Assembly: GCA_013140935.1 (NCBI GenBank)
Contig: JABFSD010000583.1
Span: 1 to 14,384 of the forward strand
DNA: 14,384 bases
Source: Acidobacteriota bacterium
Lineage (GTDB): Bacteria; Acidobacteriota; Blastocatellia; RBC074
Direction of reading: 5' to 3'
In this document: piece after piece, positions 3,620 through 12,059 of the stretch
Layout: the number at the start of each line of letters is the position of its first letter
Numbering within the stretch: position 1 is the first letter of the stretch
Program-made: the position numbers and the translations under genes
Notes under the pieces: generated by a model
Seen by the model: the letters and a program-made list of their open reading frames with translations, nothing else
Database searches by the model: none
Told to the model about the DNA's origin: nothing

Positions 3620-4645
3620 TTAACGCGCAGCCTCATTTGATTGGCTGTTCGCGTTGATTTGTAACCAATTGAGCAAGTCGTCTTTGGTCGTGAAAAAGAG
3701 CAAGGCTTCGCTCAGGTTTTCCAGTTGCTCCGTCACCAACGCACGAATCCGCTCATCGAGTTCCGCTCCCAAAATTCCGAAGCGACGATGAAGTTGACGC
3801 AAGGCTAATTTTGCCGCTTCGCGCTGCTCACCAATTTGCTCGCCTATTTGCTTACCGCGTTCTTCACCTCTTTGTTCGCCTTCTTTAATCCATACTTCAG
3901 CTACACTTCTCATAATTTCTTCCAATTGTTCGGGGAACGCAGCGTCCACCTCTGGTTTAATGGTTTCCGGCTTCAGCACGGTTTTCGCACCGAGCAAGTA
4001 TTTCAAGATGGTCTTGATATAGCCCATCACGAGACGTTTGGGCAACCCTTTAGCCGCCGCGAAAATCTCGCGCAAGCGTTGCGGCAATTCCGCGCTAGCG
4101 ACGTATTTCAACGCCAGCAAGCCCGCCCGCAAGCGCGCTCCACCCCGATTGATTTCGAGCTTCGACAGATCGCAGACGTGATACTGAAACCCCGGCAGGT
4201 ATTCGCGCAGCATTTCAAGTCCCGTGAAATCGCACAGTGATTGAAAGTTACGGTTCGCCTTCCAGCTTGCGGTGCCATGATAGAACACGATGGGAAAAAC
4301 CAGCGGCAACGGCTTCGTACGCTTACCTAAAAAAGGCCGCCAGATTTGCGCCAGATAAACGAGCAACTGCAAGGCGACGAATTCGTCCGGCTTACTTTTG
4401 TGTTCAAGCAAGAGGTATATGAAAACCGCGCGGCCTTGTTTCAAACGCACACGCAACAGCAGGTCGGAAAAATACTGGCGCAACTCTTCGTCAATGAAAC
4501 TTTCCTTGACGATGGTCAGGCGGGTCAGGTCAAGCTGGGCGACAAAGGCTTCAGGCAAATAATGGCGCACGAAATCTGCGGCGGTTTCGCGTTGCGAGAA
4601 CAACTCCTTGAAAAAGCGGTCGTGCGGATTGGGAATTTCGACCAT
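3620..4645 (-). CDS. Rpn-family recombination-promoting nuclease / PD-(D/E)XK protein
   Basis: 341-residue protein of the Rpn / putative-transposase (PDDEXK) family. These are metal-dependent DNA endonucleases related to E. coli RpnA, linked to RecA-independent recombination and possibly to phage defence. The N-terminus NPHDRFFKELFS (6-17) is the family hallmark. The nuclease core shows SDLLLRV (D61) and LLLEHKSK (E81-x-K83), the expected catalytic D...ExK, followed by VFPIVFYHG. The C-terminal third holds a hydrophilic Gly/Glu/Gln/Arg repeat and a helical tail. I place the start at the ATG at 4645, not at an upstream in-frame ATG at 4690, because the family begins at MVEIPNPHDRFF and the extra residues would overlap the terminator ahead of it. 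It converges on the CRTAC1-type gene with only 6 bases between stops. No good SD is visible. Confidence 0.85.
   Translation of the reverse strand: MVEIPNPHDRFFKELFSQRETAADFVRHYLPEAFVAQLDLTRLTIVKESFIDEELRQYFSDLLLRVRLKQGRAVFIYLLLEHKSKPDEFVALQLLVYLAQIWRPFLGKRTKPLPLVFPIVFYHGTASWKANRNFQSLCDFTGLEMLREYLPGFQYHVCDLSKLEINRGGARLRAGLLALKYVASAELPQRLREIFAAAKGLPKRLVMGYIKTILKYLLGAKTVLKPETIKPEVDAAFPEQLEEIMRSVAEVWIKEGEQRGEERGKQIGEQIGEQREAAKLALRQLHRRFGILGAELDERIRALVTEQLENLSEALLFFTTKDDLLNWLQINANSQSNEAAR
3622..3655 (+). terminator. possible terminator hairpin after the CRTAC1-type gene
   Basis: An 11-bp stem is formed by AACGCG+CAGCC (3622-3632) and GGCTG+CGCGTT (3643-3647 and 3650-3655), with a 10-nt loop and a 2-nt bulge. 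On the plus strand it is followed by GATTTG, a weak T-run. It begins 8 bases after the CRTAC1-type stop and overlaps the last codons of the convergent Rpn gene, so it could stop rightward transcription before it runs deep into that gene. The weak T-tract keeps confidence low. Confidence 0.35.
3821..3880 (-). repeat. five degenerate 12-bp units coding Gly-[Glu/Lys]-[Gln/Glu]-[Arg/Ile]
   Basis: Inside the Rpn gene, residues 256-275 read as five consecutive tetrapeptides: GEQR, GEER, GKQI, GEQI, GEQR. At DNA level these are imperfect 12-bp tandem units. The stretch links the nuclease domain to the C-terminal helical tail and is probably a charged helix or flexible linker. Rpn-family proteins often carry such charged repeats, and unit number could vary between strains. 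Confidence 0.6.
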
Positions 4646-4667
4646 AGCGTAGCGTCCCAATGAAAAC

Positions 4668-4699
4668 GGCCACGGCCTGCCGAGTGGCAAGCCGTAGCC
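4668..4699 (-). terminator. Rho-independent terminator after the TonB-receptor gene
   Basis: A 14-pair stem with two C-A mismatches and a 4-nt loop occupies 4668-4699. Arms begin GGCC and end GCC, with the inner pair set TGCC/GGCA. Read on the minus strand it is followed at once by GTTTTCAT, a short T-run. It starts about 27 bases past the receptor stop codon and lies ahead of the Rpn gene, so it should end the receptor transcript. The plus-strand side also has an A-rich flank, GGAAAAAA. Confidence 0.6.
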
Positions 4700-9901: not shown

Positions 9902-11212
9902 TTATTCTTTGATAGGAGTTAATTTACCATCTCGCAGCACGCGCATCCGCACGCCGCGCCATTCAATTTCATTCCCCCAAAAGCCGAGCAACCAAACTAC
10001 GAACGCCAGCACATCACGCAACAGCACGAGCCAAAACCATTTCAGCAACGTGCGATCACGCAAAGCGACGAAGCCTGCGACAAAGGCTGCCAGCATTCGC
10101 AAGGCCAGCGTTACAAACCACAAACGCCACGCCCACGAACTAAACCCATTCACCAACAAAGCCAAACTCGCCGTCACCGTGCCGTAAGTCACGATCAGTC
10201 CAACATAGCCAGCAGGGCGCGATACACGAATAGCACGCATCCAGCGCAGTTGGTGTTGGAACATCTCGCCTAACGTGGCGGCGTTGGCGACATGGTCTAC
10301 GACGCAATCTGAAAGGATGACCTGCAAATTAGCTCGGTTTTTACCTGGGTTTACGGCAAGCGCGCTGTGGGGCAGGTTCTCAACCTGCCCCACAGCGCGT
10401 GCGACTTCGGAGTTGTGGGGCAGGTTGGGAACCTGCCCCACAACTCCGTTAGCATTTTTCTCGTAGACCGAACTGACAACCGATCTAAGTTGCGTAGCCA
10501 CGCGATAGCCGAGTTCATAATCATCAGCCAGATGATCGGCAATTGCCGTGAATCCGCCGATGGCTTCGAGCGTAGCGCGCCGCATCACAACGCCTGCACC
10601 CAATGCGAACTTCACACCTTGCAGCATCCGCGCCGTCAGAACTTCAGGCGCAAACAACGAAGCGAGACCGATGTTTTCCAACAAGTCGCCGAAGGTCTTG
10701 GCGCTAATGCCGCGATAAAGGCAGGTGACCATTCCGACCTGTGGGTCTTGCAACGGAGCTACGACGCGACGCAGGTAATCGGGCGCGACGCGAATGTCTG
10801 AATCGGCGATGAGCAATACGTCATGTTTAGCTGAGGGCAAAGCGTTTTGCAGATTCGAGACTTTGCCGTTGTAACCATGCACGGTTTCGTTCACGACCAA
10901 CGCGATGTCGCAGTGCGGAAAGTCTGCACGCAGTTTTTCGACAATCGGAATGACCGCATCGCGCGGGTCTTTTACGCCAAAGACGATTTGATAAGACGGA
11001 TAATCAAGACGGCAAAAGCTGGCGAGCGTCGCATACGATTCTGCTTCAGCTCCGCGTAAAGGTTTGAGAATCGTGACGGGCGGCGTAAAGGCAGGCAGCG
11101 CGCGCTGTCGTCTTGCATCAGCGAGCCACAAGAAAGCGGCTACGCACGCGGCGAGGTAATAGCAGCAAGCAGCAATCGCACAAATCCATAAAACCAGTTG
11201 AAAGATATACAT
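9902..11212 (-). CDS. hpnI: HpnI-type membrane glycosyltransferase (GT2, ceramide-glucosyltransferase-like) with in-frame repeat insert
   Basis: 436-residue integral-membrane glycosyltransferase. In hopanoid producers HpnI adds N-acetylglucosamine to bacteriohopanetetrol, and HpnK then removes the acetyl group. One N-terminal helix (1-31) is followed by a cytosolic GT2 domain (VTILKPLRG at 46-54; DSD at 137-139; LADDYELG at 228-235; QLRWMR, a QxxRW motif, at 321-326). Three to four C-terminal helices end the protein (about 336-412). Between GYRVATQ (to about 241) and LQVILSDCVVDHV (from 296) there is an extra segment of about 54 residues encoding two VGQVxNLPHxS peptides. Family members run straight from one block to the other; removing it leaves about 382 residues, the usual size. 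The segment carries two perfect DNA palindromes. The ATG is 3 bases after the preceding stop, so translation is coupled. Assignment to hopanoids rather than another lipid is inference. Confidence 0.85.
   Translation of the reverse strand: MYIFQLVLWICAIAACCYYLAACVAAFLWLADARRQRALPAFTPPVTILKPLRGAEAESYATLASFCRLDYPSYQIVFGVKDPRDAVIPIVEKLRADFPHCDIALVVNETVHGYNGKVSNLQNALPSAKHDVLLIADSDIRVAPDYLRRVVAPLQDPQVGMVTCLYRGISAKTFGDLLENIGLASLFAPEVLTARMLQGVKFALGAGVVMRRATLEAIGGFTAIADHLADDYELGYRVATQLRSVVSSVYEKNANGVVGQVPNLPHNSEVARAVGQVENLPHSALAVNPGKNRANLQVILSDCVVDHVANAATLGEMFQHQLRWMRAIRVSRPAGYVGLIVTYGTVTASLALLVNGFSSWAWRLWFVTLALRMLAAFVAGFVALRDRTLLKWFWLVLLRDVLAFVVWLLGFWGNEIEWRGVRMRVLRDGKLTPIKE
10361..10399. repeat. perfect palindrome 1 (REP-like) inside the HpnI-type gene
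   Basis: Two 18-bp arms, CGCGCTGTGGGGCAGGTT and its exact reverse complement, flank a 3-nt loop (CTC). The inner 12 bp of each arm, GTGGGGCAGGTT, are shared with palindrome 2; the outer 6 bp differ. It stays in frame and encodes part of VGQVENLPHSALA on the minus strand. It resembles small interspersed palindromic repeats seen in many copies in some bacterial genomes; copy number here cannot be tested. Confidence 0.9.
10408..10448. repeat. perfect palindrome 2 (REP-like) inside the HpnI-type gene
   Basis: Two 19-bp arms, CGGAGTTGTGGGGCAGGTT and its exact reverse complement, flank a 3-nt loop (GGG). It lies 8 bases from palindrome 1 and shares its 12-bp core GTGGGGCAGGTT, while the outer 7 bp are different yet still fully self-complementary. 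It is translated in frame as part of NGVVGQVPNLPHNSE. Two such units head to tail look like a paired REP/BIME-type element. Confidence 0.9.
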
Positions 11213-11215
11213 CGT

Positions 11216-11587
11216 TCAGCGCGCCGCCAGAGTAATGATGATGACGCCCGCCATCACCAACAACGTACCCAGCCAGCGTTTCGGTTCGATCTGTTCGCCG
11301 AGAAAGAACTTCGCGCCCAGCGTATTCGTCACGTAACTCACGGCCGTGAGCGGTACGACCAACGACAGGTCGGCGTAACTCAGCAAACTGATGAACGAGA
11401 AAAACGAAACGGCGAGAAAGATGACGCCCGCGAATAAAAACGGATTGCGCAGCATGCGTCCGATGGCGCGCAACAATTCACGTGGATTCAATGAAACCGC
11501 TCCTACTTGTTGCATGCCTTTGGCCGAAAGAATTTCGCCGAGCGAACTGCACGCGATCAGGCTCACCAATAACAAAGCCGTTTTCAC
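11216..11587 (-). CDS. small 4-TM DMT/EamA transporter subunit (second of pair)
   Basis: 123-residue membrane protein of the drug/metabolite transporter superfamily, half-size like SMR or ArnE/ArnF proteins. Predicted helices are at about 3-20, 49-70, 74-93 and 105-121. Typical motifs are YADLSLVVPLTAVSY and EPKRWLGTLLVMAGVIII. I choose the GTG at 11587: it has a strong GAAGGAGG four bases upstream, matches the paralogue's N-terminus (MKT..LLV), and its GTGA overlaps the preceding stop by 4 bp. A longer reading from 11770 would only add residues that duplicate the upstream gene in another frame. Half-size DMTs often work as hetero- or homodimers; ArnE/ArnF flip undecaprenyl-linked aminoarabinose. 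Its place between a lipid deacetylase and a lipid glycosyltransferase suggests moving a glycolipid or its precursor. Confidence 0.85.
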   Translation of the reverse strand: MKTALLLVSLIACSSLGEILSAKGMQQVGAVSLNPRELLRAIGRMLRNPFLFAGVIFLAVSFFSFISLLSYADLSLVVPLTAVSYVTNTLGAKFFLGEQIEPKRWLGTLLVMAGVIIITLAAR

Positions 11588-11982
11588 GCAGCCTCCTTCG
11601 CGGTGGTCTTCTGTTCGGTCGTAGAGACAATCGCTACGCCGGCGCAAATGACGGCGGTACCGAACCAGCGCAACGGCGAAATCGGTTCGTGCAAGAGCAG
11701 CTTCGCCAGCAGTGCGTTGAGCAAGTAACCGAAGGCCGTAGCGGGTACGACAAAGCTCAAGTCCGCCCACGAGAGGGCGACGAGATAGAGCAGATAAAAT
11801 ATCGTGAGTGTCGCGATGCCCAGCCAGATGAAAGGATTCGTAAAGACCTGAATACCAATCTGAAATAACGCCGCCGGGTTGAGCGTATTCACTTCGCCCA
11901 CGGCTTTCATGCCTTTGGTCAAGCAGACATCGCCCAACACTTGTGCGCAGATGGCGACGAAAAGAACGACGAGAGTTTTCAT
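11584..11982 (-). CDS. small 4-TM DMT/EamA transporter subunit (first of pair)
   Basis: 132-residue four-helix membrane protein (about 2-19, 51-71, 76-96, 105-121) of the DMT/EamA superfamily. It is paralogous to the gene that follows: compare WADLSFVVPATAFGYLLNAL and PLRWFGTAVICAGVAIV with the partner's YADLSLVVP and PKRWLGTLLVMAGVIII. A charged tail (TTEQKTTAKEAA) follows the last helix. The ATG at 11982 has no recognisable SD; the bases upstream are TTTCCCATT, and a long inverted repeat starts 9 bases before the start codon. Its stop overlaps the next gene's start (GTGA), so the two subunits are translationally coupled, as expected for an obligate heterodimer. Substrate unknown; a lipid-linked sugar is inferred from context. 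Confidence 0.85.
   Translation of the reverse strand: MKTLVVLFVAICAQVLGDVCLTKGMKAVGEVNTLNPAALFQIGIQVFTNPFIWLGIATLTIFYLLYLVALSWADLSFVVPATAFGYLLNALLAKLLLHEPISPLRWFGTAVICAGVAIVSTTEQKTTAKEAA
11592..11599 (-). promoter_or_regulatory. ribosome binding site deciding the GTG start of the second DMT gene
   Basis: GAAGGAGG on the minus strand with a 4-nt spacer to the GTG at 11587. It lies inside the 3' end of the first DMT gene and picks this GTG over any upstream in-frame ATG. Confidence 0.75.
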
Positions 11983-11991
11983 AATGGGAAA

Positions 11992-12059
11992 CCGCGTTCG
12001 TAGTTCCGCCTTTAGGCGGTCAGGTGCGGAACCGCCTAAAGGCGGAACTACGAACGCGG
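11992..12059. repeat. perfect 29-bp inverted repeat with 10-nt loop between HpnK-type and DMT genes
   Basis: Left arm 11992-12020 and right arm 12031-12059 are exact reverse complements over 29 bp, with loop CAGGTGCGGA. The inner part, TTCCGCCTTTAGGCGGT, is itself partly palindromic (CCGCCTTTAGGCGG), so cruciform or double-hairpin forms are possible. It fills most of the 81-bp gap between two co-directional genes. It has no T-run, so it is more like an intergenic mosaic or MITE/REP-type repeat, or an mRNA-processing or stabilising structure, than an intrinsic terminator. Confidence 0.92.

Follow-up and report, generated by a model that had tools for sequence, protein, structure and literature searches.

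MITEs derived from IS630 elements are short, have IS630-like terminal inverted repeats and TA at their ends, and lack a transposase of their own, as described for RUP of pneumococcus. Excerpts of PMC2229807 and PMC10969869 cover such MITEs, IS630 with its TA target, and the Rickettsia palindromic elements (RPEs), which are ~150 bp long, palindromic, and placed in frame in conserved protein genes. ISY100, an IS of the Tc1/mariner type (PMC2170065, in excerpt), provides a comparison system for IS630-type ends. REPs and REPINs are short palindromes with many copies, inverted doublets, intragenic copies, and compensatory changes. In the portions available, PMC3733652 treats GTAG and CGTC REPs, dimers, intragenic REPs, and acidobacterial tyrosine transposases with their own terminal inverted repeats; PMC3116915 treats compensatory changes in REPINs, and PMC8266576 treats TnpA-REP recognition.

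Here, we analyzed a 14,384-nucleotide stretch of DNA from an Acidobacteriota bacterium (the window; its genome is G000). The feature under study is very probably a nonautonomous 154-bp MITE of the IS630/Tc1-mariner type that carries two REP-like hairpins and was inserted at a TA in hpnI, in frame, with a gain of 52 residues. It differs from RUP and ISY100 in having REP-like hairpins in its middle and in lying in frame in a conserved enzyme. It differs from RPEs in its IS630-type ends, and its likeness to them is one of description, not of compared sequence. The hairpins share with REPs and REPINs the features listed above but have a 3-nt loop, a tag that lies inside the stem and reads GTGG in the window, and several copies nested in MITEs. 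Their stems reach ~19 bp in G000 and its genus mate G001, compared to 5–13 bp for GTAG families in the excerpt of PMC3733652.

Each part of this arrangement (IS630 MITEs, REPs, and in-frame elements in Rickettsia) is known, and the composite looks new. Among the literature matches listed, no paper deals with REP-like hairpins within IS630 MITEs of this lineage. The novelty appears to reside in the composite, the lineage, and the covarying stem. Here, an IS630-type MITE with REP-like hairpins has added a segment to a protein of an uncultured lineage; Rickettsia provides the best-known examples of new coding sequence gained in this way.

The hpnI Gene Contains an In-Frame Insertion

The product of the interrupted gene is assigned to HpnI by the curated equivalog TIGR03472, with 379.5 bits against a cutoff of 310. 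Coordinates are collected in Table 1.

Table 1. Features of the hpnI locus in window coordinates
Feature	Position	Strand	Details and basis
hpnI, bacteriohopanetetrol glucosamine biosynthesis glycosyltransferase, 436 aa	9902..11212	-	ORF; TIGR03472; PF13506
Probable MITE, IS630/Tc1-mariner type, 154 bp, in frame	10332..10485	.	Ends, TA, in-frame size
Left TA, one copy of proposed TA target duplication	10330..10331	.	Joined flanks resemble empty homologue P0007
Right TA, second copy	10486..10487	.	
Left terminal inverted repeat, TA included	10330..10357	+	22/28 bases identical to left end of L265
Right terminal inverted repeat, TA included	10460..10487	-	22/28 bases identical to right end of L265
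Hairpin 1	10361..10399		Arms 10361–10378/10382–10399, 18 nt, 100% complementary; loop CTC
Spacer between hairpins 1 and 2	10400..10407		8 bp
Hairpin 2	10408..10448		Arms 10408–10426/10430–10448, 19 nt, 100% complementary; loop GGG

The insertion adds 156 bp (the 154-bp element plus one TA), exactly 52 codons. Since this length is a multiple of three and no stop occurs in the frame used, HpnI gained a 52-residue segment. An earlier, sequence-only reading had noticed this extra segment and put it at about 54 residues; it had given 10361..10448 for the two hairpins, and the inserted unit is wider (10330–10487). Joining the flanks without the insert gives a 384-aa protein that reads QLNLQVILSD across the junction, compared to QLNQQVVLSE in the empty homologue P0007; the joined-flank stretch RVATQLNLQVILSD corresponds to RVATQLNQQVVLSE in that homologue. 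The segment is absent from 11 of 13 aligned homologues, including P0004–P0010, which are seven of the nine nearest. P0002 and P0003 carry a shorter insert at the same site with the same VGQVxNLPH peptides.

AlphaFold2 (37 sequences) gave a pTM of 0.77 and a mean pLDDT of 76, with the five models ranging from 53 to 76. Residues 231–293, comprising the insert and ~11 native residues before it and adjoining the LADDYELG motif, fall below a pLDDT of 50, indicating that the insert is not predicted to fold. The enzyme presumably tolerates the added segment. Several HpnI homologues are labeled Acidobacteria or Blastocatellia by their sources, which makes an uncultured member of this group the probable host. 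Many homologues of ~540 aa (P0011, P0013, and others) also contain an EamA (PF00892) domain; in P0011 the extra part precedes the HpnI part. Two small ORFs lie directly upstream of hpnI in the window, at 11216–11982.

In the best tree, the carriers P0001, P0002, and P0003 do not form one clade, and three changes are needed; P0023, whose motif did not match, was left out of this analysis. Forcing the carriers into one clade costs 19.2 log units, with an AU p of 0.0596, so that one clade is not clearly rejected. One gain before the split of the three carriers followed by losses, repeated insertion at one TA, and exchange are all possible. In P0003, one hairpin is flanked by D and I, compared to V and N in the window. 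Because GAT/ATC and GTT/AAC are both complementary, this change can be a compensated one, judged at the protein level. A contig scan for DNA resembling P0002 or P0003 returned only homologues with at most 48% identity in the best segment.

The Element Has IS630-Type Ends

The termini were compared with those of two full-length IS630 elements from the related genome G006, L265 (1019 bp) and L267 (1016 bp), both of which have TA outermost at both ends. These are the two cases, out of eight DDE_3 matches in G000, G001, and G006, in which both ends of an element were located. The transposase of L265 lies in two overlapping frames, of which the second scores 127.2 bits against NF033545 (cutoff 100) and the first scores 58.7 bits, below it. 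Elsewhere in the window, the L265 ends match at best 16/28 bases, compared to the 22/28 found at each MITE end. The right end of L267 matches the window ends at 22 and 21 of 28 bases; its left end matches at 17 and 18, which is chance level (17 elsewhere). The two window ends match each other at 19/28 bases, with a local score of 16, the value reached by mismatched flanks at their 95th percentile; given this low mutual match, the case rests on the family comparison.

TA is present at both ends, with the empty site compared at the protein level, and the element, short as it is, contains no transposase. An IS630 transposase would have mobilized it in trans. An IS630 transposase (125.1 bits) is also encoded on contig C743 of the same genome; the left end of that element matches the window ends at only 13/28 bases, and no right end was detected in the part of the contig examined. 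Relatives of the window MITE occur in its own genome on contigs C360 (91% over 114 bp) and C794 (94% over 79 bp). The palindromic repeat very probably entered hpnI as cargo of this IS630-type miniature element, which the first description had not foreseen.

The Hairpins Belong to a Dispersed Family

The arms of both hairpins are fully complementary, bearing out the description of two perfect, closely spaced palindromes. Their common core is 13 bp (TGTGGGGCAGGTT), one base pair longer than had been stated. With up to three mismatches allowed, GTGGGGCAGGTT-N3-AACCTGCCCCAC occurs twice in the window, compared to no occurrence in 200 shuffles.

The sequence-only reading had named two outcomes that would count against it, a single genomic copy of the core and an insert of similar length and sequence in all HpnI orthologues of distant species, and neither was found. 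The 23-base core occurs at 16 exact places in G000; the flanks on C638 and C854 suggest that these contigs share a single copy, which would lower the count to 15. The 27-base core with at most three mismatches occurs at 47 places (control 0), the high copy number of a short palindrome expected of REPs. At 18 of the 20 places with two mismatches, both fall at partner positions (counted by eye; the search ignored pairing). The exact core was detected in 4 of 38 sampled genomes of relatives, own genome included. A related pattern with at most three mismatches gave 27 places in G001, 44 in G006, 5 in G003, 2 each in G010 and G029, 1 in G008, and 0 in G007. In a phylum sample of 159 genomes, whose only member of the family to which G000 belongs is G000 itself, a match at no more than one mismatch was found in G000 only. 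Some copies form a core subfamily with CAGGAT-N3-ATCCTG instead of CAGGTT-N3-AACCTG: L058 and L060 in G000, L221 in G001, and L213 in G006, where one CAGGAT copy is paired with a CAGGTT copy.

Besides the window, stop-to-stop frames of at least 400 aa cross a hairpin on seven G000 contigs. In five, the hairpin lies well inside the predicted frame: C941 (CHAT/AAA, 1213 aa), C726 (632 aa, no Pfam match), C987 (DUF6541, 580 aa), C163 (PMT_2, 575 aa), and C290 (sugar kinase-like, 424 aa; the hairpin falls in the part matched by SBD_N). On C360 (543 aa), hairpin positions are residues 23 and 39, which may precede the start; on C840 (477 aa, no Pfam family match), the hairpin lies near residue 70. 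The genome-wide copies and the homologues without the segment bear out the earlier description of an interspersed palindromic repeat that lies in frame within a conserved enzyme.

The Outer Arms Covary

We collected 112 hairpins with 40-bp flanks from G000, G001, G003, and G006, of which 83 remained after related copies were dropped. They were picked by core pairing (at least 10 of 12 pairs), so pairing in the core is partly built in; positions from 13 outward were not used in picking. In G000 (n = 42), positions 14–18 are paired in 60–71% of hairpins, compared to 26–45% with permuted partners, and position 19 in 45% compared to 26%. From position 20, pairing is 14–33%, around the 25% background. 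In the full set, core positions 2, 5, 7, 9, and 10 exceed all 500 permutations, a test over hairpins in which kinship between copies remains in the statistic.

Stem lengths in G000 form two groups, 12–13 bp (13/42) and 17–21 bp (15/42), with peaks of 8 each at 12 and 19. G000 and G001 together have 35 stems of 13 bp or longer; 20 of these reach 17 bp, and 10 of the 20 end at exactly 19. None of the 18 G006 stems exceeds 14 bp, indicating that long stems are characteristic of G000 and G001. Judged from sequence, the variable outer arms resemble a stem of ~19 bp (12–14 bp in G006) whose two sides covary, in agreement with the earlier remark that the outer arms differ and yet are self-complementary. 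The outer arms would be a coevolving stem in which selection on the folded strand, template-switch correction between arms, or both maintain the pairing.

Related MITEs Carry Different Cargo

The end motif TTAnAnCGGTTTTCAnTTGnGTG is common to the window MITE and to many elements of 62–291 bp in G000 and G001. Allowing at most two mismatches, motif AGCGRTTTKCANTTGNGTG gave 33 sites in G000, compared to 2 for the control, and 253 in G001, compared to 7; because each element has two ends, these are counts of sites and not of elements. Some MITEs lack the family hairpin (e.g., those of 62–69 bp, L235, L244, L249, and L285), some carry one hairpin (105–118 bp; L052, L056, L220, L240, L219, and L017), and some carry two (145–160 bp; L028, L215, L216, L222, and L015, which is the window element). 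Others contain different palindromes (e.g., L237, L241, L255, L257, L261, L277, and L290). The empty L285 (69 bp) and L290 (174 bp, with a dimer of GTAGGGGCAGACC palindromes) are identical in their left 28 bp and differ at 3 of their right 28, suggesting that palindromes were gained by an existing MITE or lost from one.

Window-type ends are present on both sides of 18 of 86 hairpin clusters, ~4 of them by chance as judged by eye. Inverted-repeat scores of the flanks, calculated for 81 of the 86 clusters with the five at contig ends skipped, average 12.8 for true flanks, 9.8 for mismatched flanks, and 8.3 for shuffled flanks. This excess comes mostly from MITE ends, and long copy-specific outer inverted repeats were rejected as a general rule. 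Hairpins also occur in elements with other ends, AATGAGATTAAGGCAAG in G006 and AGTACTCCATCAAGCTG or GGCTTTTGAAAA in G001, indicating that the hairpin is not tied to one MITE. The G006 MITE with AATGAGATTAAGGCAAG ends and two hairpins is found at ~8 near-identical loci (L196, L204, L207). By eye, it seems to have inserted into sequence that was itself palindromic, and direct repeats of ~7–11 bp lie next to it.

Alternative Origins of the Hairpins

We considered whether the hairpins themselves are the mobile unit, a REP/REPIN spread by a RAYT (TnpA-REP) that entered the MITE or the gene directly. Their REP-like size, the GTAG start of many copies, and their presence in several MITEs with unrelated ends are consistent with such an origin, as are the inverted doublets of the family. 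In 25 doublets, 8 of which are near-copies of one G006 element, the two loops are identical in 0, and in 14 the second is exactly the reverse complement of the first, compared to 170 of 3403 random pairs with this relation; the loops of the window pair correspond in this way at 2/3 bases. Y1_Tnp genes are present in all six genomes searched. One of them, L115 in G001, has its own flanking inverted palindromes, CCGTGGGTT-TTC-AACCCACGG (1341–1361 and 1927–1947), in a RAYT-like layout and with the same GGTT-N3-AACC tip as the hairpin family. A REP-associated gene had been put forward as a lead, and it was not borne out in the loci examined: CAGGWT-N3-AWCCTG was absent from all 30 Y1_Tnp loci examined out of 45 matches in the six genomes (95,915 bases, up to 1.5 kb on each side; the genome of the window is 74% complete). 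The window copy, moreover, has terminal inverted repeats and TA ends outside its hairpins, and its tag reads GTGG inside the stem and not GTAG at the stem foot. Spread as a REP is possible but on the unlikely side for the feature; it may hold for the hairpins even if the window copy arrived with the MITE.

The outer arms could also stem from the insertion event, either because existing hairpins (terminators or palindromes) received the core in their tip or because a flank was copied by fold-back synthesis. Some outer arms resemble intrinsic terminators (TAAAAAGCT on C454 and AAAAAAAGAAAGGCT on C1014), and some elements lie within further inverted repeats (L204, L226). This origin is made rather doubtful by the return of G000 pairing to near background from position 20 across unrelated contexts, by the 10 of 20 G000/G001 stems of at least 17 bp that end at exactly 19, and by the compensated pairs that distinguish related elements. 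Nor was an empty site with the arms alone found in two element types: all 5 places of the first type lie beside a hairpin, and of 4 places of the second, the hairpin is complete in 3, while in L299 the left part of the element is missing. A functional RNA or regulatory hairpin kept in the hpnI mRNA would fit the fold of the insert (−98.2 kcal/mol, z −12.4). No Rfam family was matched at gathering score, and 13 of 16 weaker matches are miRNA hairpins, judged chance matches arising from the fold alone. Most close homologues lack the insert and the same hairpins occur in other open frames, and we regard such a function as very improbable. The preferred reading remains an IS630-type MITE with two hairpins inserted at a TA of hpnI, the 156 bp adding a segment that the enzyme would tolerate.

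Maintenance of the Stem

The sequence-only reading had left a choice between selection for a hairpin and a mechanism that produces one by copying. About a hundred related hairpins, both within and outside open frames, form a natural test set for this question. Under template switching, several pairs are expected to change together and the loop to be inverted, whereas stepwise selection should leave one-sided intermediates. Across three dependent pairs, L052, L076, and L220 show 10 compensated and 2 single stem changes. All related pairs together show 27 compensated, 87 single, and 14 other double stem differences, many of the single ones coming from G006 copies, in which positions 13–19 lie outside the stem. 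Window hairpin 1 differs from its C360 relative by one compensated pair and two one-sided differences.

In G001, the siblings L298 (the same element as L220) and L300 are distinguished by 4 of 86 aligned bases: one compensated stem pair, a loop that reads AGT in one and its exact reverse complement ACT in the other, and the last base. There is no single-sided stem change; the loop change is one base, and this is one case. A compensated pair with an inverted loop is named as the strongest support for template switching in the excerpt of PMC8794818, and the excerpt of PMC8604942 reports template switching in yeast coding genes. Exact loop inversion was found in 6 of 39 related pairs with different loops, which are interdependent, compared to 170 of 3230 random pairs (L300 lies outside this set), and as a general rule among related pairs it was rejected.

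These changes raise the idea that the hairpin is a self-templating module, which settles in unrelated miniature transposons and genes and whose stem is rewritten as a unit by template switching between arms, so that pairing would be kept by copying, without selection for a product, in and outside reading frames. The L298/L300 mark makes this idea slightly more probable than before, and we offer it as speculative. Maintenance by selection and maintenance by template switching both stand, with one sibling pair favoring copying.

Other Repeats in the Window

An ORF for a Transposase_31 (YhgA-like) protein with a DUF4351 domain occupies 3620–4690. A second perfect inverted repeat, with 29-bp arms and a 10-nt loop, lies at 11992–12059 and is built on CGTTCGTAGTTCCGCCTTTAGGCGG. 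The 265,154 bases scanned from the same genome contain 12 copies of its inner palindrome, CCGCCTTTAGGCGG, and 4 of these copies are arranged in 48-bp steps in L082.
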